Positions 11,945 to 35,957 of a DNA stretch of 39,892 bases are shown here, piece by piece. Positions within the stretch are counted from its first letter, which is position 1. Every line of letters begins with the position of its first letter. Where the stretch lies: IMG/VR virus record IMGVR_UViG_3300021964_000174, positions 1 through 39,892 of that record, one strand, 5' to 3'. The notes under the pieces are model-generated. The model had not been told where the DNA came from. It saw only the letters and a list, made by a program, of their open reading frames with translations, and searched no databases. The translations under genes and the position numbers were made by a program. The DNA comes from a virus.

Positions 11945-12545
11945 GGCCGTCCACTCCGTATGTCCAGTCTTTGAGCAGTTGGGCGATTACAGGATCACGC
12001 TGTTTTGGCGCCATCGTTGGAATGGGCGGCGTTCCCTGTAGGGCTTGACCAAAGGCCGCGCCTTCCTCTTGAGCGGCCCTGAATGAGCCAGGGGCGGGGC
12101 CAGTGCCGGGGGCCGGTCCAGCGGCTCCAACAGCACCTTGCGGGCCTGATGGAGCAACGTCGCCCGTGTATTCCATATGCCAAGGGTCTTGTTTGATCGG
12201 GAACCGTAGGCCGTACTGTTCCGCGTTCTGGCGCATCCAGCGCAGTGCGTCCGGGCGGGGCTTGTAGAAGTCGATCGCGGTGGCCGCCTTGCCGTGATGC
12301 TTGCCACGACCCCACGGCGCAAGCACACCGGGCTTGCCGGTCATCGGGTCTAGGCCATGCCGACGAGCAGCCGCGACCTGTTGATCCCAGTTGCGCCCCG
12401 TGTCCGAGATCAACAGCTGATTGCGATACTCAGGCGGCATGTTCATGAGCATACGCGCCAACGCCATCTTCATCGGGTCGGCCAAGTTGCCGTATCCCTG
12501 ACGGGCGTTGTCATTGAGGTGTTGCGTGATGTCGTATGGCAGCAT
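11937..12545 (-). CDS. M15-like zinc peptidase, probable virion-associated peptidoglycan hydrolase (202 aa)
   Basis: Residues 81-93 (GKHHGKAATAIDF) and 121-125 (PWHME) resemble the two zinc-binding motifs of D-Ala-D-Ala carboxypeptidase / L-Ala-D-Glu endopeptidases (HxxGxAxD and WHxE). 'DTGRN' and an aromatic-rich spacer fit the same fold. The HG-to-D spacing is one residue longer than usual, which is noted as odd. The C-terminal 75 residues are Gly/Pro/Ala-rich and may anchor it to the particle. Its place between portal and scaffold suggests a virion-borne lysin used at entry, not the lysis endolysin. Confidence 0.6.
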   Translation of the reverse strand: MLPYDITQHLNDNARQGYGNLADPMKMALARMLMNMPPEYRNQLLISDTGRNWDQQVAAARRHGLDPMTGKPGVLAPWGRGKHHGKAATAIDFYKPRPDALRWMRQNAEQYGLRFPIKQDPWHMEYTGDVAPSGPQGAVGAAGPAPGTGPAPGSFRAAQEEGAAFGQALQGTPPIPTMAPKQRDPVIAQLLKDWTYGVDGLG

Positions 12546-14563
12546 TAGTTTGGCGGCCCCTCATCCCGCAGTTGGGCATCTGCAATCATGCGCTCGATAT
12601 CAAGCTCGGTCTTCATCGCGTCGGCCTGAGCCTTGGCGTTGATCTTGGCCATTTCCGCCTCGACGCCGGCCTGCGTCTTGGCCATGTCCATCTGGCTCTT
12701 CTGGGCGTCGATCTCAGCCTTCATCTGCATCGACTCGGCCTTGGCCTTCTCAGCCTCAACGGCGGGATCAGGCGGCGGCGGCTCGGGCGGCTGTTGTGCG
12801 GCCTGTTCGATGGCCTGGCGCATCTCGTCAAGGCTATCTTCCATCTGCCGGCCGCCCTTGAAGCCCCGAACGCCGAATTCGAGCATGTCGAGGCCGAGCT
12901 TCTGCATCGGTGGCCCGCCCATCTGCGCAAGCGGCATAAACGCCTGCATAAATGTCGCCATGGATTGCAGCAGTTCGGTGCGGTCCTGCTTTTCTTGCGC
13001 CGCGTCCTCGAAGATCGTCGAGTCGGTTTCGATGTCTACGTGGTAGCTGCGCAGCCGGTCATTGCGCATGATCTCGACCACTTGGTCGATCGTGAGCACA
13101 TCAGGCGGTGGCGGCGGTTGCTGGCCCATCATCATGGCCTGCATCTGCATCTGAGCGTATTGCGCCTGCACTTCAGCCATCGTCGGCAGTTCTTCGCCGG
13201 TCATCTCCATCAGGATTTCAGGCTGCATATGCTCGGCAATCAGTTCGGCCTTGATCCGCATTCCATCCCTGATCCACCGCTGCACATCGTGCTGGCGTTC
13301 CTTGATGCGGGCGCTGCCGTATTGCGCCTTGATGCTCTGAGCCGTCGCCGTCTCGCTGGCTTGGCTCTGGCCGCGCATGATGTCGCTGATGCCGGTAACT
13401 TCGTAAATCGTCTCAATGAGCTGTTGGCGCTGCTCATAAAGGCCGGCAAGAACCGCAATGGCGGGCTGGAGGTCTTCAACCTGGAATGCGCCTTGGAACC
13501 CGCCGCCCTGGATGAAGGCCGCGAAGTTCTCGACGGGAATAAACTGGTTGTCCGATGCCTTGGCGAGCCGGGCCAGCTCCTTGACGGCAGCATCATAGAC
13601 GCCGCGGCGCTTCAATGCCTTTGTCAGCCGGCTAATGCGGTCAGTGATCTCGTCAAGGTCGTCAATCTGGTCTTCATACTCAACGATCGGGCTGCGCGGT
13701 ACGAACGAGCAGTTGGACCACACGCCCTGGATCGGCTCCGCCATCGGGAAGAAGCCTTCGAGGTTGTATGGGTCTTCGTCCACACGCAGAATGTACGGAT
13801 AGCCCTTAACAACCCAAAGGCGCTCTTTCTTGGGCTTGTGCCAAATCTCCCAGACCTCGGCGCGCTTCAAGTCCTCGGGTATCTCCGAGTCTTTGTTGCC
13901 GAACCCGTCTGGCGCCCAGTCCAGAGGGATGTCGTCGGCGTTTGGGATATCCATTTCACGGAGGTCGGCACGGGTGAAATGGTGGCGGAATCCCACCCAC
14001 CAGACATCAGACCAAGATTTGGCCTGAGAGTGCAAAAAGTCGCCGTAATACACGTGTTCGTCGCGGATCATCTGGCGGACGATGATCTCGTTGCCCATGC
14101 CGTCGTCACCGGTTTCGGCCTCGTAGCAGACGCGGACCACGCCACGGCCGGCAAGCGCCATGTCCTTCACGGCGCGACGGTTCACCTTGTCATGCTCGGT
14201 CGTGTCAATGAGGAACATCAACGACTTTTCGAGCATTTCGGCGATGGTGCGGGCGGTCTTGTCCTTGGCCTGCGTGAACCGCTGGCGCACATCGGGCTTA
14301 GGCTGGCGCGCATAGAGCGCCGACATTGTGGTTTCAGTGTTAGCGTAAACGATCTGAAAGCGGCGAGCCATCGCCTTGCGGTGGTGGCCCTCACGGTCGT
14401 TGAGGTAGCGTTTCTCAAACTTCTGGCCCGCTTCCCAGAACTCCTTGTGTTCCTTCTCGGCGATCTGGAGCTGTTGCAGCCAGAACCTCGAGGTCCGAGG
14501 CTTGGTTTGCGGGCGCTCGACCTCTTTGATGTCAACGTCGGGGTTGTTCTTCTGGTCAGCCAT
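12545..14563 (-). CDS. Portal protein (672 aa)
   Basis: Length and order (after terminase, before scaffold and capsid) fit a P22-type portal. The N-terminal half has features of these portals: 'FEKRYLNDREGHHRK', 'RRFQIVYANTETTMSALYAR', and 'DMALAGRGVVRVCYE'. 'TGISDIMRGQSQASETATAQ' near residue 395 is a strong portal signature. The last 120 residues are a long Met/Gln/Ala-rich coiled coil, like the P22 barrel. It is coupled to both neighbours by TAATG. The dodecamer forms the DNA entry vertex. A long open frame on the opposite strand is a compositional shadow. Confidence 0.85.
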   Translation of the reverse strand: MADQKNNPDVDIKEVERPQTKPRTSRFWLQQLQIAEKEHKEFWEAGQKFEKRYLNDREGHHRKAMARRFQIVYANTETTMSALYARQPKPDVRQRFTQAKDKTARTIAEMLEKSLMFLIDTTEHDKVNRRAVKDMALAGRGVVRVCYEAETGDDGMGNEIIVRQMIRDEHVYYGDFLHSQAKSWSDVWWVGFRHHFTRADLREMDIPNADDIPLDWAPDGFGNKDSEIPEDLKRAEVWEIWHKPKKERLWVVKGYPYILRVDEDPYNLEGFFPMAEPIQGVWSNCSFVPRSPIVEYEDQIDDLDEITDRISRLTKALKRRGVYDAAVKELARLAKASDNQFIPVENFAAFIQGGGFQGAFQVEDLQPAIAVLAGLYEQRQQLIETIYEVTGISDIMRGQSQASETATAQSIKAQYGSARIKERQHDVQRWIRDGMRIKAELIAEHMQPEILMEMTGEELPTMAEVQAQYAQMQMQAMMMGQQPPPPPDVLTIDQVVEIMRNDRLRSYHVDIETDSTIFEDAAQEKQDRTELLQSMATFMQAFMPLAQMGGPPMQKLGLDMLEFGVRGFKGGRQMEDSLDEMRQAIEQAAQQPPEPPPPDPAVEAEKAKAESMQMKAEIDAQKSQMDMAKTQAGVEAEMAKINAKAQADAMKTELDIERMIADAQLRDEGPPN

Positions 14564-15729
14564 TAGCTATCCGCATCGTAAAGGGCCTGCTGCACCTCGA
14601 TCAGCGAGAAGCGGGCGGTGACAATGGTGTTGATCGTGTCGGAAAGAGCCGTGAGGTAAAACACGTCGCCGGGCGAAAGCACGAACGGTTGCTCGGGGTT
14701 AATCGACACGGTGTTTTCAACCGCTGTGTCGATATTGGCGCGGAACACCTCATACCGGGAATTGGAGGTGGGGTTATAGGCGATACCCTTGATCGTCACG
14801 GTGGGCGTTGTCCCAGGGGCGATCTTATTCACGTTGATCCACAACCAATCAGCTAGCGCCACAGACTGAAGCTGGGTGTGATAGATGCACTGTTGTGTCG
14901 TGCCGTGTCCGGTCGGAATTTGCGCGAGCGTGGCTCCGCCTGTGGTTGCCGTGATGTTGATAGTGCCGGCATTAACCTGGCCGCTGCCAGCCAGCGCCAC
15001 GGCAGCACGATTGATCCCAAGCCACGTCGAGGTCGTCACCACATTGGTGGTTCCATCCAACGTGACTGTCTCTTGCTGAAATTTACGGTTGGCATCAATG
15101 CCAGTGATTTGGATGAGTTGGGCGCCCGTGCCGGCTGGGTCACCATCATCATCCGTTGAGGTGGACGCGATCGTCAACGTGGTGGCCGATGTCGGCGGCG
15201 TGTAGGTACCGCCAAACGATGAAATCACCTCTTCAGAAGTATCAACGTCGAGGTTGTAGCCGAACTTATTGAATGTCCGGTGGCCCTGCCGGACGCCCTG
15301 TGCCACCTCATAGTGGTAATCTGTCGGACGCACGACGGTCGCGTCGTAGTCCTGCGACACGGTGCCATCAATCGGCACGTTGAGCGGGTGGCGGCTGCCA
15401 TATGTGGTTTGCAGGCGGAAATATGTCTGGTCCGTGCCGTTGTTGGTGTAAACGACCCGCATGTAACGGCGGGTGTTCGTGAACCGATGCGGCACATTGA
15501 TCCCGGCCGTCTGATAATAGCGGGTGAGCGTGCTGTCTACGTTGGTGCCATCGGGGCTGTATTGGACCGAATAGATGCCATCCACGTCAGTTGTGACGCT
15601 AACAACCGTATCAGGCCATTGGCTGACATCTTCCCAATCGCCCGTGAACACCCCACTGCCGGCAAGCGGCGTCGTGGAGCTGTTGGTCGTCGAGACCGTC
15701 GACAGGGCGCCGTGGTAGAGCTTGGACAT
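14563..15729 (-). CDS. Virion structural protein between terminase and portal (388 aa)
   Basis: The ATG overlaps the terminase stop (TAATG). The product is Thr/Ser/Asn/Gly-rich and beta-patterned throughout, with repeated 'TTDVDGIYSVQYSPDGTN'-type hairpins and 'NPTSNSRYEVFRANI'. There are no enzyme or zinc motifs. A beta-rich protein here could be a head fibre or collar component. I do not recognise a precise family. Confidence 0.55.
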   Translation of the reverse strand: MSKLYHGALSTVSTTNSSTTPLAGSGVFTGDWEDVSQWPDTVVSVTTDVDGIYSVQYSPDGTNVDSTLTRYYQTAGINVPHRFTNTRRYMRVVYTNNGTDQTYFRLQTTYGSRHPLNVPIDGTVSQDYDATVVRPTDYHYEVAQGVRQGHRTFNKFGYNLDVDTSEEVISSFGGTYTPPTSATTLTIASTSTDDDGDPAGTGAQLIQITGIDANRKFQQETVTLDGTTNVVTTSTWLGINRAAVALAGSGQVNAGTINITATTGGATLAQIPTGHGTTQQCIYHTQLQSVALADWLWINVNKIAPGTTPTVTIKGIAYNPTSNSRYEVFRANIDTAVENTVSINPEQPFVLSPGDVFYLTALSDTINTIVTARFSLIEVQQALYDADS

Positions 15730-24993: not shown

Positions 24994-25347
24994 ATGGAAG
25001 CATTCGAGTGGATGACAATTCCATTGAGCGGCCGCGAGCACGAAATGAGCCGCCGCGAGTTGTTGATTGAAGTGCGTATTTATGAAGAGGACGGAACGCT
25101 GTATGCGGAGCCCGTTTATTACAAGGTGTTATCCGAAAACGATAACGTCATCATGGATGGTGCGCACTTGACCCGCCATCTTGAAGGTCGGATGTGGGAC
25201 TTTCTGCGGCTGACTGTCGAGGGCGAATATACCGACGACCGGCTGGCTGATATCCGTGAGTGGCACCCAGCGTTTGCCTATTTGCGCCGGGAAGATTTGG
25301 AACAAAAGCGCATGGACAACGAACGGTATCGCGCGTCAGTTTTGTGA
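24994..25347 (+). CDS. First gene of the rightward operon, unknown (117 aa)
   Basis: AAGGAGATGG precedes the ATG at 24994. The frame is open further upstream, but that would translate the leader hairpins. The protein is acidic, mixed alpha-beta, with a conserved-looking 'RLADIREWHPAF' near residue 85. There are no cysteines or membrane segments. Being first after the control region, it may be an early host-takeover or regulatory protein. I do not recognise the family. Confidence 0.6.
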   Translation: MEAFEWMTIPLSGREHEMSRRELLIEVRIYEEDGTLYAEPVYYKVLSENDNVIMDGAHLTRHLEGRMWDFLRLTVEGEYTDDRLADIREWHPAFAYLRREDLEQKRMDNERYRASVL

Positions 25348-25367
25348 GCCCACAATGAGTACAGTGC

Positions 25368-25487
25368 ATGAAATGGAAACTGCTTGCAGCTGCATCGCTG
25401 CTCGTCCCATGGAACGCCTACGCGGCGGACCTCGGCGGAAATTGCTGCGCGGATCTCGAAGAACGGGTTGCCGAGCTTGAAGCCACG
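25368..25487 (+). repeat. Duplicate of the first 120 bp of the porin gene
   Basis: This segment matches 27853-27972 at 117 of 120 positions, by eye. The three differences are silent (ctg/cta, aat/aac, gcg/gcc). Similarity begins at the start codon and ends at codon 40. Flanks on either side are unrelated. Confidence 0.9.
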
Positions 25488-25721
25488 CTAGTTGCGTGTG
25501 TGGTGTTCGCTCTGGGCATGTGGCTGCTGTGTGTCGGCTACATGCTCCGAGCGGAGTATCTGGAGAAGCGAGATGGGAAAAGACAAGATGCCAAGAACAG
25601 CATTAGGCTGGTTGAAAGTGCGCGAGATCGACGCCGCGCCAGCAGAAGACTTCGAGACCGTAGAAGATGGGAACGTGGTTCGGCTGAAGCAAAGGGAAAC
25701 CGAACTATTCGCCGCCGCTAG
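25368..25721 (+). CDS. Chimeric protein: porin N-terminus fused to a membrane segment (117 aa)
   Basis: Residues 1-40 are identical to those of the porin at 27853. They comprise a signal peptide (about 1-20, ending AYAA) and the short coiled coil DLEERVAELEAT. From residue 41 the sequence differs: a hydrophobic segment (about 41-59) and then a strongly basic tail. The tail from about residue 69 overlaps the 25573 gene in another frame, so it may be fortuitous coding. The chimera could be exported and inserted in the membrane. It may be a duplication relic or a new gene formed by capturing the porin 5' end. Confidence 0.5.
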   Translation: MKWKLLAAASLLVPWNAYAADLGGNCCADLEERVAELEATLVACVVFALGMWLLCVGYMLRAEYLEKRDGKRQDAKNSIRLVESARDRRRASRRLRDRRRWERGSAEAKGNRTIRRR

Positions 25722-25836
25722 GGAAGCCCAGAACAAGATCACCCACTACACAGCTGAGCTTGATCGCATCTATCGTGAGATCGACAAGTGCTGCCAGGCG
25801 ATCAACTGCCGGCTTCAGACGGGGGACGATCAATGA
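25573..25836 (+). CDS. Small coiled-coil protein upstream of the ERF gene (87 aa)
   Basis: The ATG at 25573 follows GGAGAAG. The protein has an acidic centre and a helical C-terminal half (RETELFAAAREAQNKITHY... then IYREIDKCCQ). Its stop overlaps the ERF gene start (ATGA). It overlaps the chimeric gene's tail in another frame. Its function is probably in recombination or a regulatory step, but only context says so. Confidence 0.55.
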   Translation: MGKDKMPRTALGWLKVREIDAAPAEDFETVEDGNVVRLKQRETELFAAAREAQNKITHYTAELDRIYREIDKCCQAINCRLQTGDDQ

Positions 25837-26507
25837 GACACGTCCAAGACATGCCCCCTTCTATTGTCGTCGCAATTGCGAAAATACAGAAGGCTATGGA
25901 GGCCGTCGAGCACGACGGAACGAACACCCACGGCAATTACAAATTCGCATCGACGGATGCTGTTTATGCGGCGCTTTCAGCTAAGATGGGCGAAGTTGGG
26001 CTAACTATTATTACACTGGAAGACCCGCCAGAGTTCAAGCAAATAGATGGTCCAAAGGGTCCGCAGAGATGGTGCCAATTCACGTTCCGTTTTGTTCTTG
26101 CAACCGAGGATGGCACTTGGACGGACGAAAGGTGTTGTCGTACCCTTCACATGCAAATCCTCGGGCCGCAGAGTTACATGGCAGCGCAATCCTACTGCGA
26201 GAAGGCGTTTCTTAGATCGCTCTTTAAGATACCGACCGGCGATCTTGATCTTGATCAACTGCCGTCTGACGGGGCAACGGAAGGCGAAAAGAAATCATCA
26301 GCGGCTGCTAAGCGCGAAGGACTGTGGGATCAGTTTAACGCAGAACTCGACATGGCCTTGGAGATAGAAGACGGCCATCAGGCAATGAGTGCGATCGTTG
26401 CTGTCGAGCAGCGGTATAATTCAAAGATGCCTAAGAAGTGGAAGGAGCCGATGTGGGATGCGCTGGAGCGTGCCCGGCAGACGGCTGGCCAGAGGCAACT
26501 GCTGTGA
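25833..26507 (+). CDS. ERF-family single-strand annealing recombinase (224 aa)
   Basis: The start at 25833 overlaps the previous stop (ATGA). The N-terminal half has the ERF pattern: 'IVVAIAKIQKAMEAV' then 'NTHGNYKFASTDAVYAALS' and KMGEVGLTII. Later 'ILGPQSYMAAQSYCEKAFL' and 'LFKIPTGDLD' (AxSYxxRyaLxxlfgIptgDdD) also match. ERF proteins anneal complementary single strands and can circularise the injected genome or promote recombination. The C-terminal 60 residues are a variable helical tail. Confidence 0.85.
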   Translation: MRHVQDMPPSIVVAIAKIQKAMEAVEHDGTNTHGNYKFASTDAVYAALSAKMGEVGLTIITLEDPPEFKQIDGPKGPQRWCQFTFRFVLATEDGTWTDERCCRTLHMQILGPQSYMAAQSYCEKAFLRSLFKIPTGDLDLDQLPSDGATEGEKKSSAAAKREGLWDQFNAELDMALEIEDGHQAMSAIVAVEQRYNSKMPKKWKEPMWDALERARQTAGQRQLL

Positions 26508-26956
26508 GGCCGTTTCTCACGATCGCCAGCGATCTAGAGCGGCGAGCGGACATCAGGCGGGGCGACGCAATTGCGCCCCTCTTGATTGAAGCGATGCAGG
26601 CGATCCGCGAACTGGTGCGGCGGCTTGATTTGAAGCCCCGCTCCACGCCGCAGCACAGACGGTTCTTTGCGCTGATCAAAGCAGCCTTTAAGCACTGGCC
26701 CGAGGGTCATGAGGTTCAATGTGGGTCAGCGGAAGGGCTGCGCGATTATCTCCAGATCAAGGCAGGGTTTGGCGTGCCTCACAAGATCGTAAGAGGCGAC
26801 ACAACCTACATCTGGTTCGAGCACAAGTCTGTCGCTTACGACAAGATGAGCCAAGAAGAGTTCTCGAAGTTAGCTGACAAGGTTGAAGCGATCATAGAGG
26901 ACACCATCGGCGTGCCAGCGGACAAACTTTTGGAGATGGATCGGAGCGAGACGTGA
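26504..26956 (+). CDS. DUF1367-like recombination-associated phage protein (150 aa)
   Basis: Start GTG at 26504 overlaps the ERF stop (GTGA). 'HRRFFALIKAAFKHWPEG' (about residues 47-64), 'LRDYLQIKAGFG' and the C-terminal 'KMSQEEFSKLADKVEAIIE' follow the order of motifs in DUF1367 proteins, found next to recombination genes in lambdoid phages. Its activity is unknown. Coupled genes on both sides support the assignment to the recombination operon. Confidence 0.6.
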   Translation: MRPFLTIASDLERRADIRRGDAIAPLLIEAMQAIRELVRRLDLKPRSTPQHRRFFALIKAAFKHWPEGHEVQCGSAEGLRDYLQIKAGFGVPHKIVRGDTTYIWFEHKSVAYDKMSQEEFSKLADKVEAIIEDTIGVPADKLLEMDRSET

Positions 26957-27180: not shown

Positions 27181-27247
27181 GGCAACCGGTGTTCCTTATA
27201 TCTCCGTGGAGTATTGGTATCATGCAAACGGTTATCATAGCGATTAG
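27044..27247 (+). CDS. Small HTH-like protein (67 aa)
   Basis: The start is chosen at the ATG at 27044; in-frame ATGs at 26999 and 27005 are possible. The C-terminal half 'DLAKLGHTPWTISEATGVPY' then ISVEYWYHANGY is a convincing short helix-turn-helix. It overlaps the preceding gene by 137 bases in another frame, so one of the two starts may be misjudged or an ancient frameshift may have split a single gene. Confidence 0.4.
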   Translation: MSSVGATSTAPDNTKSSDASEPELVDVIDQMHDLAKLGHTPWTISEATGVPYISVEYWYHANGYHSD

Positions 27248-27593
27248 TGTATGGGTTCCGGTGTCGCTGTTGGCGGCGGTGGTGTTTTATGTGCTGGTTC
27301 GATCGGGGGAGGATGATGGGCGATCGGCAGAACTTTACGCAGAAGACGAGAAACAACGCCTTCTTGATCGCCAAAGGACGCTGCGCTCGTTGCAACAAGA
27401 AGATCATGGCGGGCGAGACATGGCACGCGGATCACATAAATCCGGACTTCTTCGAGGGAATGAACGACATCGCAAATTGCCAAGTAATGTGTATCCCCTG
27501 CCACAAAGAAAAAACAAAAACAGACCGCAAGAATATTGCCAAGTCACATCGTTTGCAAAAGCGCGAGCGTGGCGAGCGAGGTCGCAAGCGTAA
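27222..27593 (+). CDS. Possible single-pass membrane protein overlapping the HNH gene (123 aa)
   Basis: The ATG at 27222 overlaps the end of the HTH-like gene. Residues 3-26 form a clear membrane segment followed by acidic and basic residues. From about residue 32 the frame overlaps the HNH gene entirely, and its sequence there looks like out-of-frame coding. Either a short membrane peptide is made with an incidental tail, or this frame is not used. Confidence 0.3.
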   Translation: MQTVIIAISVWVPVSLLAAVVFYVLVRSGEDDGRSAELYAEDEKQRLLDRQRTLRSLQQEDHGGRDMARGSHKSGLLRGNERHRKLPSNVYPLPQRKNKNRPQEYCQVTSFAKARAWRARSQA

Positions 27594-27733: not shown

Positions 27734-27852
27734 ACACATCCCCAACATAACTGCAACACGCCTTGATTGAACCTCAAATCAGGCGCTTGGTGATAGGTGC
27801 ATCGCTAGTGCTGCGTCTTTGCGTGTATGGCCAACACACAAGGACTGATCTC

Positions 27853-27972
27853 ATGAAATGGAAACTACTTGCAGCTGCATCGCTGCTCGTCCCATGGAAC
27901 GCCTACGCGGCGGACCTCGGCGGAAACTGCTGCGCCGATCTCGAAGAACGGGTTGCCGAGCTTGAAGCCACG
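27853..27972 (+). repeat. First 120 bp of the porin gene, duplicated at 25368-25487
   Basis: This is the parent copy of the direct repeat described at 25368. It encodes the signal peptide and coiled coil. Confidence 0.9.
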
Positions 27973-28995
27973 ACGGCGCGGAAGGGCAACCGTAAGGTCA
28001 GCCTGGAAGTCTCCGGACACATCCACGAGATGATCTTCTGGCGTGATGAAATTGAACTGCCCGGCGAAGAACAGGTTGACCTGTTCGACAAAGGCGGTCG
28101 GATCATGAACGATCCAAACAACTCGGGCCGGTTTCGGTTCAGGGGCTCCGCCAAGGTCAATCAAGACTTTGAAGCTGGCTTCCTCATGGAGCTGGGCGTC
28201 AGCCACAACGAAGAGGATGAGCCCTTTGAGGTTCGTCATCAGGCGCTTTACGTGAAATCACGCGCGCTTGGTACGGTCTGGCTGGGTCAGACTTCATCCG
28301 CAACTGACGGCATTGTCGAGCTGGACCTGTCCAATGGATCGGTTGCTATGACTCTGGCCAACCCCTCCATGCTTGGCGGCGGGATCATGGACGGCGGTCG
28401 TGCTCCGGTCGTCAAATACATCACGCCAACGTTGGCTGGATTTGTGCTCTCTGCCGCTTGGGAAGATGAGGACACGTATGATTTCGCAGGTCGCTTTGCG
28501 AAAGAATACGGCGGCTTCCAGTTTGCTGCCGGGCTTGGTTACGCCAAATTCGACGGCGGGGATCGCATCTCTGGTTCGGCAAGCGTCAAGCACGTTGAAA
28601 CGGGTCTGTTCGCTTCTGGGATGTATGGTCGTCTGGATGACGGCGATGGTGACATCTTTGACGTTGATCTGGATCAATTCGGCGTTGCAGCATTTGACGC
28701 GGAGCAGTGGGGCGGTCGCCTAGGCGTTGATCGCAAATGGTTCGCCCTTGGTAAGACGACGATCTTTGGCGAATACAGCCAAATCAAGTTCAAAGACGGC
28801 GGCGGCGATCTGGACTATTGGGGCGCGGCTTTGGTGCAGTCGATCGACGCGGCAGCGATGGACATCTATGTTGCCTATCGCCGTGTTGAGCCTGATCTGA
28901 TCGTTGGCGAAGAGTGTGTTAGGAGAGAATGCAACGACATCGAATGGGATGACGGCATTGACGAATTCAAGGTCGGTGCCAGGATCAAGTTCTGA
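27853..28995 (+). CDS. Outer-membrane porin, Rhizobiales Porin_2 type (380 aa)
   Basis: A signal peptide (about residues 1-20, cleavage after AYA or AYAA) is followed by 'DLGGNCCADLEERVAELEAT' and TARKGNRKVSLEVSGHI. This N-terminal block, a Cys pair, a short trimerisation coil and the KVSL first strand, is the signature of porins of Bradyrhizobium and relatives. The rest alternates hydrophobic residues as in a 16-strand barrel and ends in F (KVGARIKF), as outer-membrane proteins do. Two cysteines lie in 'EECVRRECND'. It is shorter than typical host porins. The start is the ATG at 27853; upstream in-frame codons are leader. It is a cargo (moron) gene, outside the usual phage functions. Confidence 0.88.
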   Translation: MKWKLLAAASLLVPWNAYAADLGGNCCADLEERVAELEATTARKGNRKVSLEVSGHIHEMIFWRDEIELPGEEQVDLFDKGGRIMNDPNNSGRFRFRGSAKVNQDFEAGFLMELGVSHNEEDEPFEVRHQALYVKSRALGTVWLGQTSSATDGIVELDLSNGSVAMTLANPSMLGGGIMDGGRAPVVKYITPTLAGFVLSAAWEDEDTYDFAGRFAKEYGGFQFAAGLGYAKFDGGDRISGSASVKHVETGLFASGMYGRLDDGDGDIFDVDLDQFGVAAFDAEQWGGRLGVDRKWFALGKTTIFGEYSQIKFKDGGGDLDYWGAALVQSIDAAAMDIYVAYRRVEPDLIVGEECVRRECNDIEWDDGIDEFKVGARIKF

Positions 28996-31536: not shown

Positions 31537-32022
31537 CTAGAGGAACGTGTGTGAGGGCAGGTTGTTGCTGTTGAGAAACGCTTCGACATCATTCCGCCGG
31601 AACAGGCGCACGCCGTCCACCTCGTAATAGGGAATGCCGCCCATGGTGCCGGGCGTGCCGTTGTTGCGGACGTATTGGGCGACCTTGGAGCGTTCCCACT
31701 CTTTCACGTCGTCAGGGTCGGCGGGCTCGGTATCGAGGCGGTCCCAGTCGAAGAACTCGGAGTGGATGCGCATCTTAATGACGTAGCCCGGCGCAAAGGT
31801 CGGCGGCGTGATCTCGTTGCCATCTTGGTCGTATTCGCCCGCTGCCGTCATGAACCGACCAGAGCCCGCCCAGGGCGCCCATTCAAGGCCGGCGCGAGCA
31901 ACTTTACGGGTGCCGCCCTCACCGTCGTCAATCGACTCAATGAGCGGACGCCCCGGTGGGTTGGTTTCACCCCAAGCGACCAAGGCGGCGCGGTTTGTGG
32001 CGTATAATACTAAGTCGATCAT
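31537..32022 (-). CDS. Hypothetical tail-region protein (161 aa)
   Basis: The ATG at 32022 overlaps the stop of the large tail gene (ATGA). An in-frame ATG at 32067 would overlap further. The protein begins MIDLVLYATNRAALVAWG and contains 'YYEVDGVRLFRRNDVEAFL' near the C-terminus. Mixed alpha-beta, no membrane segment. Its position suggests a tail-fibre chaperone or tip component. The 79 bases downstream (31458-31536) hold no clear signal. Confidence 0.5.
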   Translation of the reverse strand: MIDLVLYATNRAALVAWGETNPPGRPLIESIDDGEGGTRKVARAGLEWAPWAGSGRFMTAAGEYDQDGNEITPPTFAPGYVIKMRIHSEFFDWDRLDTEPADPDDVKEWERSKVAQYVRNNGTPGTMGGIPYYEVDGVRLFRRNDVEAFLNSNNLPSHTFL

Positions 32023-35000
32023 GATGAGGCTTCCTCTATTCCAGAGTCTCCAAGGTCTTCGTCCCATTGGCGGAAGAGGGCGATGGTGCCAGTGTATGCT
32101 TCTATTGAGGATGGGATTCTGCCAAACCGCAAGTTTGCAGTGGGTGCTGGCACTGCGGTGCCGCTTGTATCTGCTGTTGCTGCTGTCCCATCTGCCGCAA
32201 GGTTGGTATCCGTCGCCGTTACCCGCGTCGCAAGATTATAAGCCACGTTTACGCCCGGCGAGTACTGCGTTAGGCTTCCACTAACCGAGACCAGACCGGC
32301 ATCAGAGGTTGACCGGCGCAGCATTGACGGCGCTCCAGTTGCCGCACCCGCTGTTAGGTCTGTTCTTAATCTTATGTTGACAGTGTTATTGGAGGCAGAT
32401 TGCCAATCCCAAATACCGACTTCCGTACTAGAATCGTTGTCTGAGTACGTTATCTCGCCTTGAGTGTGCATACAAAGTGACCCGCCAGCCGTTGCAATGT
32501 TCGCTGCGGCGATTTCCAGCGTCTCGGCTGCTCTTGTCGCAGTTGCGCCAATCGTTGGGATGTAGCTGGAGGGGACGGAGCCGACTTCAAGCTGGGCGCC
32601 GTAAATACTAATATATCCAGACGTTGATAGAGTTTGGTCCGCCTCTAAAACTCTAATTTGCACAAAGCCTGACAGATCTGTTGTCGAGCTGAACGTGATA
32701 TAACACCGATACCATCCGTTCCCCACGTCCTCAATGTCATAAGTTGGGGGAGCTGTGTCTCCAGACAACTCCGTCCCCGTTACCCCGTTGGCTAAATCAA
32801 AACTCATACTGTAATCTGTATCGTATGCGTTGCAATCCAGTCCAAGCCAATCATTCGTTCCAGCTTTGGCATAAACAGAAAGACAATATGTAGTGGCACT
32901 AGAAATCGTATGGCCGTCGTAAACAGACCGGTTTGCGGTATTAGAGGAAGTCAGACGGTCTGCATTTGTCGTTCCGTCTGGCGATGTGTCAGCGTTTGCG
33001 GATATAGTGGCTCCTGATTTGGTCCAAGCAGCGTTGTCAAATTCAGAACTGTAAACTTGCAAATTCGTCGCCGCTGCTGACTCAACCGTAATCCCCTTGT
33101 TGACGTAGCTCGTCCCGTTGTACCGGTAGGACTTGCGGCGGGGGAGATAGACGGCGGAAGAGGTCGTTGGGACGTAGCTGTCAGAACGATCTGGGTTGTC
33201 GACCATGCCGCCTAGGTCGGAGCGGTAAATATGCGCGCCCCACGCATAAAACCCAGAAGTTCCATCGCCAGAATATGTTGGCCGTGAAGTTGAATATGTT
33301 GGGGTTGCGCTATTGCTGTTGCAAATGACGATACGCGATGTGCCAGCGGCAACCATGCTACCTTGGATCAAATACCAACCGTCACCGACTGATGTTGAAG
33401 CAAAGCCGTGATCGGTTCCGTCTGTGTCTGTGATTGTACCGCTTGACAAATCAACAACACAAGAACCTCTGTCCGATCCACCTGACACATTTTCAATCTG
33501 AACGCACGCATATTGTGCATCGTCGTCTTTTAAAAACACGCCTAAAGTATAAGTCGCCCCGACAACGGTTGATGACGATTCATCGTAAACAATGTGTGTC
33601 GTGCCTCCAGAATCTTCTTCAATTAGGTCGGCTGTCAGAGTTTTATCTGGCGCTATTGCTTGGTTTCCGGTAACTGTTGAGCCAGATTTGGTCCAAGTGC
33701 CCGCAGTGAAATCTTCAGAAGTTGCAAGAAGATTATGCGGTGCCCACTTCAGGTTCCCATCCGAGTCCGTCATCACCTTATTAGACGCACCCGTGTACGT
33801 GAACATTGAGTCGAAGTCCGACTCGACGCCATTCACACGGTAATACTCAGAGCCATTCCGGTTCGTGCCGTTGAAGTCAGCAACGGTCGCTGGGCCGAGG
33901 CTCGCAACCTCGTAGGGGTCAGACGCTCTCTCTATGCCAGAGTCTCCAAGGTCAACGTCCCATTGGCGGAATAGGGCAAAGGTGCCGTAATACCCATTTC
34001 CATCGTTTGTGAACAGCTGCCCAAATTGAAAATCATCGCCTGATATATCAAGAAGGGCTGTTGGGGTTGAGTCTTCTGTTGCAGATGTACCATCTTTGGC
34101 GACATTAATTGCACCGCTTGTATGTCTGCTTGCAACATTGTAAGCGACATTAATACCTGGGCTGTATTGTCCAGTCGTCAAGCTAACTGAATCTGAAGTT
34201 CCTGCTACACGTTGTGCGCCGTCAAGAGAGCCAGTATTTCCACCTGACGTATTCAAATCCAGAACAAGTTCGTTGCTTGCGTCTGGATATGACCCGTAAT
34301 AAACAAGCTCTCGCGTCGAACTTAGATCAGCATATGTGTGCTCACCCTGCATATGGAAGCTCATCGCCGTCGTACTCGCAGCCATATCACTGCCTGCAAT
34401 ACTCAGCGTCTCAGCTGCTCTTGTCGCAGTTGCGCCAGACGTGGGGATGTAGCTGGTCGGGACGGAGCCTGCTTCGAGCTGAAGCCCATAAACATAAAAG
34501 TTTTCAGTTCCCGCACCAGCAAACGCCTCATTCCCAGTTGTGCTTCCAAGTGTTGGAGACGCGGAACTCATTATCTGAAGTCTTGCGCGCGCGAAAGTGT
34601 TCGCAGAATCTTGGAATACGACATATAATCTGTAGATACCGTTTCCAACGTCTTCGTATCCGGAGTCTACAATTGACGCCGTTCCTCCACCTGCTTGCTC
34701 GTTTTGAGACCCCATGCTGTCTAAGTCAAACGTCACCGTTGTCCAGTCTGAACTGGCTGCATATGTACCAATCGCAACGTACTGAGCTGTCCCATTTTTT
34801 ACGAAAGCAGAAACTGTGTAATCGGTGGAGGTTGATATAGTAACTACCGGGTGCTCAAAATAATGAGCCTCGTTTGTCGTGTCAGTTATCAATGCCTCCG
34901 ACATTGACGTCGCACCGTCAGGGCCAGCAGACTGGGATGCCGTCAACGTTATAGAGTCTGTGTTTCCAATGTCCCATTGCGACGAATCATTACTGTCAGT

Positions 35001-35957
35001 CAGAAGATTCGTCGCCGCCGCTGACTCAACCGTGATCCCTTTGTTCTGCCAGATGGACCCGGTGTAACGGTAAGTGTTCCGGCGGGGGAGGTAGACGGCG
35101 GAGCCAGAAGTTGCAACATATTCTGGATAAAGCGCCAAGTCTGGGTCTGGGTTATCAACCATCCCGCCCAAGTCAGTGCGCCGTAACGACCAGCCCCAAA
35201 CATAAATCCCGTTGGCATAGGTCGTAGCGTCACCGCTAAACGTATTGTCCCCCGTTGTTGTTCCATTGGATATATAGACGGATGGGTCGAAAGCCGATGC
35301 GCTGGCACAGGTCACAGTCACCGTGCAAAGATACCACCCACTTCCTAAGTCAACGACCGTACCATTTGTATCGCCCGTGTTATCATCTCCCTTTGCCCCG
35401 GTGGACAAGTTCACATATAAAAGATCAGGGTCGCTGTCCGTTATTTGCGACGCAGATGCAAAACCAATAGCTGCGTGCGTTCTGTCTCCGGCTTTTAGAC
35501 AAACTGAAAAAGTATATTTCTCCCCGACCGCAAACGTATTTGGGTTATTAAATAAAATGCCGTGCGTTGCGGTTGCAGTGTTGTCTTCAATAAGTCTGTC
35601 GCCGTTCGACCCGCCAAGGGGATCGGTTGTCGCGTCCTGCGTATCAGTCGATCTAAAATTAGTAAAATACGTTGCCGATAGATCGTCTGACGTTGTTGCT
35701 GTATTATGCGGTGCCCATTTCAGATTCCCATCCGAGTCCGTCATCGTCTTTTTGGACGCACCCGTATAGGTGAACATTGAGTCGAAGTCGGTAACGGACC
35801 CGCCCGTGCGGTAATACTCCGTGCCTCCATTGAAGAAGCCAGAGAAATCAGCAACGGTGTCGGGGTCGTCGGTCCCAACGGTATAGGCCGACAAAACCAC
35901 AGGCGCAGACGATCCAGCGGCCGCCAACATTGCGCGGTATGAAACACCAATGGGCAT
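32019..35957 (-). CDS. Very large tail/receptor-binding protein with internal duplication (1312 aa)
   Basis: Residues about 34-690 and 691-1312 are two copies of the same block (period 657 residues). Each begins TVADF..G...EYYR...DFDSMFTYTGAS and then DSDGNLKWAPHN. Each copy has two jelly-roll, carbohydrate-binding-like modules, a GITVESAAATNL linker, a 'GSVP(T/S)SYIPT.GATATRAAETL' end motif and a LamG-like module ending LFRQWD.DLGDSGIE. Residues 1-33 are a separate N-terminal anchor. The gene is visibly richer in A+T than its neighbours, which suggests later acquisition. It probably binds the cell surface. Confidence 0.75.
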   Translation of the reverse strand: MPIGVSYRAMLAAAGSSAPVVLSAYTVGTDDPDTVADFSGFFNGGTEYYRTGGSVTDFDSMFTYTGASKKTMTDSDGNLKWAPHNTATTSDDLSATYFTNFRSTDTQDATTDPLGGSNGDRLIEDNTATATHGILFNNPNTFAVGEKYTFSVCLKAGDRTHAAIGFASASQITDSDPDLLYVNLSTGAKGDDNTGDTNGTVVDLGSGWYLCTVTVTCASASAFDPSVYISNGTTTGDNTFSGDATTYANGIYVWGWSLRRTDLGGMVDNPDPDLALYPEYVATSGSAVYLPRRNTYRYTGSIWQNKGITVESAAATNLLTDSNDSSQWDIGNTDSITLTASQSAGPDGATSMSEALITDTTNEAHYFEHPVVTISTSTDYTVSAFVKNGTAQYVAIGTYAASSDWTTVTFDLDSMGSQNEQAGGGTASIVDSGYEDVGNGIYRLYVVFQDSANTFARARLQIMSSASPTLGSTTGNEAFAGAGTENFYVYGLQLEAGSVPTSYIPTSGATATRAAETLSIAGSDMAASTTAMSFHMQGEHTYADLSSTRELVYYGSYPDASNELVLDLNTSGGNTGSLDGAQRVAGTSDSVSLTTGQYSPGINVAYNVASRHTSGAINVAKDGTSATEDSTPTALLDISGDDFQFGQLFTNDGNGYYGTFALFRQWDVDLGDSGIERASDPYEVASLGPATVADFNGTNRNGSEYYRVNGVESDFDSMFTYTGASNKVMTDSDGNLKWAPHNLLATSEDFTAGTWTKSGSTVTGNQAIAPDKTLTADLIEEDSGGTTHIVYDESSSTVVGATYTLGVFLKDDDAQYACVQIENVSGGSDRGSCVVDLSSGTITDTDGTDHGFASTSVGDGWYLIQGSMVAAGTSRIVICNSNSATPTYSTSRPTYSGDGTSGFYAWGAHIYRSDLGGMVDNPDRSDSYVPTTSSAVYLPRRKSYRYNGTSYVNKGITVESAAATNLQVYSSEFDNAAWTKSGATISANADTSPDGTTNADRLTSSNTANRSVYDGHTISSATTYCLSVYAKAGTNDWLGLDCNAYDTDYSMSFDLANGVTGTELSGDTAPPTYDIEDVGNGWYRCYITFSSTTDLSGFVQIRVLEADQTLSTSGYISIYGAQLEVGSVPSSYIPTIGATATRAAETLEIAAANIATAGGSLCMHTQGEITYSDNDSSTEVGIWDWQSASNNTVNIRLRTDLTAGAATGAPSMLRRSTSDAGLVSVSGSLTQYSPGVNVAYNLATRVTATDTNLAADGTAATADTSGTAVPAPTANLRFGRIPSSIEAYTGTIALFRQWDEDLGDSGIEEASS

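Follow-up and report, generated by a model that had tools for sequence, protein, structure and literature searches.

The stretch of DNA analysed here (the window) is the 39,892-base virus record IMGVR_UViG_3300021964_000174, which has a 126-bp terminal direct repeat. It belongs to a phage of Hyphomicrobium-like bacteria. In this window, a porin gene lies downstream of a block encoding an ERF annealase, a NinB/Orf mediator and an HNH protein, and the 5' end of that porin gene occurs a second time, inside a small membrane-protein gene. The features of the region are the following.

24994–25347, plus strand: upstream gene; its stop (25345–25347) is separated from the old ATG by 7 nt and from the new one by 20 nt
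25355–25480, plus strand: frame opened by the old start codon of the membrane gene
25367–25487, plus strand: copied porin 5' segment (one base plus codons 1–40), placed after codon 4 of the membrane gene; site empty in the sister phage
25368–25721, plus strand: chimeric ORF of 117 aa, porin residues 1–40 followed by the membrane protein from residue 5
25368–25424, plus strand: signal peptide MKWKLLAAASLLVPWNAYA, predicted cleavage between AYA and AD placed by eye; ADLGG boundary conserved in all aligned porins
25425–25487, plus strand: predicted mature end, an Ala-Asp acidic coiled-coil tip ADLGGNCCADLEERVAELEAT, net charge -5
25488–25547, plus strand: transmembrane helix LVACVVFALGMWLLCVGYML of the old gene, hydropathy up to 2.35
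25548–25721, plus strand: basic tail (+14), overlapping the next gene in another frame
25833–26507, plus strand: ERF-type single-strand annealing protein (PF04404; phrog_155)
26504–26956, plus strand: NinB/Orf recombination mediator (phrog_319)
27852–27972, plus strand: donor segment at the porin start
27853–28995, plus strand: phage porin, 380 aa (PF13609 Porin_4, E 1.8e-15)

The repeat is 121 nt long (25367–25487 versus 27852–27972), with a spacing of 2485 bp between the copies, and its match within the record is far above chance (E 1.9e-55). Copy and porin differ at CDS positions 15 (G/A), 75 (T/C) and 84 (G/C), all three being silent third positions. The original prediction had described a second copy of the first 120 bp of the porin gene, identical at 117 of 120 positions with only silent differences, and its coordinates and counts were correct. 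It had also placed the start of the copy exactly at the ATG; the 120 bp from the ATG are indeed copied, but the repeat starts one base 5' of it. Elsewhere in the window, the tail-protein gene (32019–35957) contains direct repeats about 1.9 kb apart and 77–91% identical, that is, an internal duplication.

Insertion into an older membrane gene

The sister phage IMGVR_UViG_3300017963_000140 (L003; 39,778 bases), whose porin is 92% identical to that of the window, showed the empty site. Its small transmembrane gene, without insert, starts MSSVLVACVVFALGMWLLC, encoded by ATG AGT AGC GTA TTG GTT GCG TGT (MSSVLVAC...). In the window, ATG AGT ACA GTG is followed by the 121-nt copy and then by CTA GTT GCG TGT, which translates as MSTV, the insert and LVACVVFALGMWLLC. 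The two genes align codon for codon on either side of the insert, from codon 5 on and through the membrane segment. There was no visible loss or duplication of the target, and at most one base of shared sequence was found at each junction. The empty site and the aligned flanks in L003 thus show the copy to be a clean templated insertion after codon 4.

The helix and basic tail are orthologous in the two phages, with 55 of 76 aligned residues identical, the same locus and the same neighbours. Over the 28 codons free of overlap with the next gene, we counted seven differences, six of which were silent (dN 0.016, dS 0.36); six or more silent changes out of seven have a probability of about 0.001 under neutrality. 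This comparison indicates that the membrane segment is under purifying selection and that the recipient was already a selected gene before the insertion, its conservation being mostly older than that event. The original prediction had seen the copy joined, after the signal peptide and coiled coil, to an unrelated membrane segment. The join is real and in frame, with an intact signal peptide, but the segment is a conserved older gene from codon 5 onwards. No relatives of the membrane gene were found in 103 Filomicrobium ih4 family genomes (a search without a positive control), in genome contigs or elsewhere in IMG/VR. Named phage and plasmid collections yielded no relatives at the DNA or protein level. 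Two further frames were noticed in passing: a second small membrane ORF (27223–27593; MQTVIIAISVWVPVSLLAAVVFYVL...) overlaps the HNH gene in another frame and has a similar counterpart in L003, and a 676-codon open frame (12536–14566) lies exactly antisense to the portal gene (12545–14563, minus strand) and is probably a by-product of codon use.

An assembly or library artefact was also considered. The chimera is seen on a single metagenomic contig, and no second contig with the right-hand junction was found in the set searched, from which near-identical records may be missing. Nevertheless, the two copies differ at three sites and their longest common exact run is 59 nt, which makes collapse or misjoining of the repeat by the assembler unlikely. 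Moreover, the sequence on both sides of the clean insertion agrees with that of the sister phage, and the terminal direct repeat is what one expects when long k-mers are used to assemble a genome that is circular or terminally repeated. We therefore consider an artefact most improbable.

The insertion had a direct consequence for the start of the gene. The insert length, 121 nt, is not divisible by three; the old ATG (25355) has therefore fallen out of frame and opens only 41 codons, ending at TGA 25478–25480. The insert brought its own ATG (25368), 13 nt downstream, and from this start the remainder of the membrane gene is read in frame despite the frame-breaking length of the insert. The ribosome-binding signals were unconvincing, and of about the same strength, at the two window starts (-2.1 and, at the new ATG, -2.2 kcal/mol) and at the L003 start (-2.1 kcal/mol), as compared with -8.0 kcal/mol for the upstream gene and -8.6 kcal/mol for ERF. 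Since both window starts lie within about 20 nt of the upstream stop, reinitiation is likely in both phages, and it is possible at the new ATG. The old ATG may, on the other hand, capture ribosomes and have them read out of frame. In-frame GTG codons at 25500 and 25503 provide a third possible start route. The choice among these starts is the weakest point of any functional reading. A promoter and terminator scan was uninformative.

Age of the copy and constraint on it

The copy was 97.5% identical over 120 nt to the phage's own porin, whereas host porins reached at most about 87% over 65–76 nt, and a host origin was rejected on this basis. Other phage porins were visibly more distant from the copy. 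At positions 75 and 84, the copy has a base that occurs in no related porin. The base of the porin, by contrast, is shared by some or all related porins, which makes the copy the derived sequence at two of the three changes. Between copy and porin we obtained dN 0 and dS 0.11, as compared with a dS of 1.19 for the porin barrel between the window and the sister phage. The graft thus long postdates the divergence of the two phages. A diversity-generating retroelement was also considered and was rejected on the pattern of the differences, the three being silent and not concentrated at template adenines.

The original prediction had read the silent-only differences as selection on the peptide or very recent origin. 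The young age was borne out. As for selection, three silent changes out of three have a probability of 0.015–0.023 under neutrality, a mildly improbable value resting on three sites, which hints at constraint on the copy without proving it. Taken together, sequence comparisons indicate that the chimera is real as sequence and recent, and explain it cleanly as a templated duplication of the porin 5' unit into an older gene.

Whether the event brought anything to the phage is a different matter. An illegitimate templated insertion might simply have happened to keep the frame open and have been tolerated with no new function, the product being a harmless fusion, a protein reinitiated at GTG 25500 or 25503 after the TGA at 25478, or lost altogether. 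The youth of the event would fit such an accident, as would the weak initiation signal at the new ATG and the fact that the copy was found in one phage only, searches of IMG/VR and contigs having yielded no second carrier. Besides, one insert in three is in frame by chance, and if only inserts that left the membrane frame open were retained, those carrying a start codon would be favoured for that reason alone. Against this stand the silence of all three changes and the position of the borders, one exactly at the porin start and the other, in frame, after the whole signal-plus-coil unit. We hold a tolerated accident to be a serious possibility, though somewhat short of an even one.

The porin 5' unit as a recombining module

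Porins of related phages have mosaic structures (window 27853–28995, L003 9104–10240, and the porins of phages L004, L005, L016 and L106), with breakpoints near the signal/mature border or in the coil. The window and L003 porins share the barrel (93.5% aa) but not the signal peptide (52.6% nt). Conversely, L003 and L016 are alike in signal and coil (about 95% nt) and unlike in the barrel (48% aa), and L005 and L106 are alike in the signal only (96% nt), their coils (74% nt) and barrels (62% aa) being different. These parts have different histories, which implies that the 5' unit has been exchanged as a piece around a conserved coil. On this sequence evidence, it behaves as a recombining module in related phages, staying constant in some of them while the barrel behind it changes.

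We scanned for the cassette motif at loci drawn from 79 host hits, mostly from Hyphomicrobium, Filomicrobium and other Hyphomicrobiaceae, and in phage contigs. The scan returned 121 occurrences, at partly overlapping loci. All complete ones except that of the chimera ran into a porin-length frame with a barrel match, and the incomplete ones ended at contig ends or at a run of N. In additional phage contigs, the cassette led to porins only. As the host search retained the top 80 of 316 hits, detached copies of a rarer kind may have escaped it.

The duplication into the membrane gene fits a recombination-prone setting beside annealase and mediator genes. In a separate observation at this locus, ERF (window 25833–26507) and RecT (L003 6400–7458), two unrelated annealases, were found to have a common C-terminal tail of ~60 residues, so that the tail has stayed constant while the cores were swapped.

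A role of the copy as DNA or RNA was also considered, either as a homology patch for recombination between the copies or as a decoy drawing a regulator away from the porin messenger. The frequent recombination of the porin 5' unit in this group and the annealase genes between the copies would suit a patch. However, recombination between these direct repeats would cost the phage its ERF, NinB and HNH genes. Besides, the porin leader was not copied, no Rfam match was obtained and the predicted fold was not unusual, being weaker than that of shuffles. Such a role seems very unlikely to us.

Predicted product and comparison with known systems

Hydropathy, signal and charges of the chimera fit one predicted topology, that of a type I inner-membrane protein. 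The working that we propose starts from the recent duplication of porin codons 1–40 into codon 5 of the small inner-membrane-protein gene, which lies 2.5 kb upstream of the donor. The new ATG would be used through reinitiation after the upstream gene, and the porin signal would lead the chain through Sec and be cut after AYA. The old helix would then stop transfer, so that the coiled-coil tip, 21 residues long and beginning Ala-Asp, would face the periplasm and the basic tail would stay in the cytoplasm. The helix would thereby keep the orientation, N-out/C-in, that hydropathy and charge predict for the old protein. The export signal proposed by the original prediction stays plausible for this protein.

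The original prediction had further suggested that the product could join porin trimers through the shared coiled coil and alter them, an alteration that might amount to poisoning. The 21-residue mature end is indeed identical in chimera and phage porin. Yet the Porin_4 domain (PF13609), which the donor gene matches at E 1.8e-15, was not found in the chimera by Pfam, and the protein is predicted to be retained in the inner membrane by its hydrophobic helix and +14 tail. In addition, matches to solved structures covered the barrel only, none spanning the N-terminal coil or showing it to trimerise. Lacking a barrel, the product should stay in the inner membrane, and we consider it very unlikely that it joins trimers. 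Searches of Pfam, PHROG, NCBIfam and PADLOC gave no family match for the chimera.

The reading that we favour is a recent in-frame domain graft, by which an inner-membrane protein would have gained a signal that can be cleaved off and, in the periplasm, a coiled-coil tip beginning Ala-Asp; we give it close to an even chance. As to function, a working fusion and a tolerated accident have roughly equal claims, the latter being nearly as likely. It is tempting to speculate, by analogy, that the graft may have given the old protein an oligomerising or wall-anchored tip. A bolder proposal, which we consider rather unlikely, is that the porin 5' unit is a mobile export-and-wall-anchor cassette, here making a protein that bridges the inner membrane and peptidoglycan. 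If true, such a phage protein may affect superinfection or envelope stability.

The analogy comes from Brucella and Agrobacterium, in which outer-membrane proteins are linked to peptidoglycan by an N-terminal alanyl-aspartyl motif (PMC10787603, PMC12729407), through an Ala-Asp-mDAP link (PMC12729407). For Brucella Omp2b and Omp25, the joining of the Ala-Asp end to peptidoglycan is attributed to Godessart 2021 in PMC10787603 and PMC12729407. The predicted mature N-terminus of the chimera (AYA/ADLGG) is likewise Ala-Asp, would be exposed to the periplasm and belongs to a related host group, some porins of the family starting with Ser-Asp instead. In contrast to those barrels, the chimera would carry its tip on a predicted inner-membrane helix, and its linkage, which in proteins of this class is a covalent bond to meso-diaminopimelate formed by an L,D-transpeptidase, is proposed by analogy. 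OutB of Dickeya dadantii is an inner-membrane protein covalently attached to peptidoglycan (PMC12274547). The chimera would resemble it as an inner-membrane protein that may be wall-anchored, but OutB uses an Lpp-like box rather than an Ala-Asp start, and the sequences are unrelated.

Phage-encoded porins such as Lc of phage PA-2 and NmpC change the outer membrane of the lysogen; in such conversion by a temperate phage, the porin takes the place of the host receptor. The present phage likewise has its porin gene near its lysis genes, but the chimera itself is not a porin, and no integrase was seen among the subset of ORFs whose proteins were scanned. Mosaic phage genes arise via annealase-driven illegitimate recombination, and the sharp, homology-poor junctions of the chimera, at domain borders and beside annealase genes, are of this kind. 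It differs from them as an intragenomic copy-and-insert event in which the donor was kept and the empty site survives in a sister phage. Donor, recipient, both junctions and the empty ancestral site are thus all visible. This is one of the rare cases in which the birth of a chimeric protein can be seen so clearly, a whole export/envelope unit having been placed on an older membrane protein. If expressed, the chimera would be a direct test case for the acquisition of envelope targeting by phage proteins.
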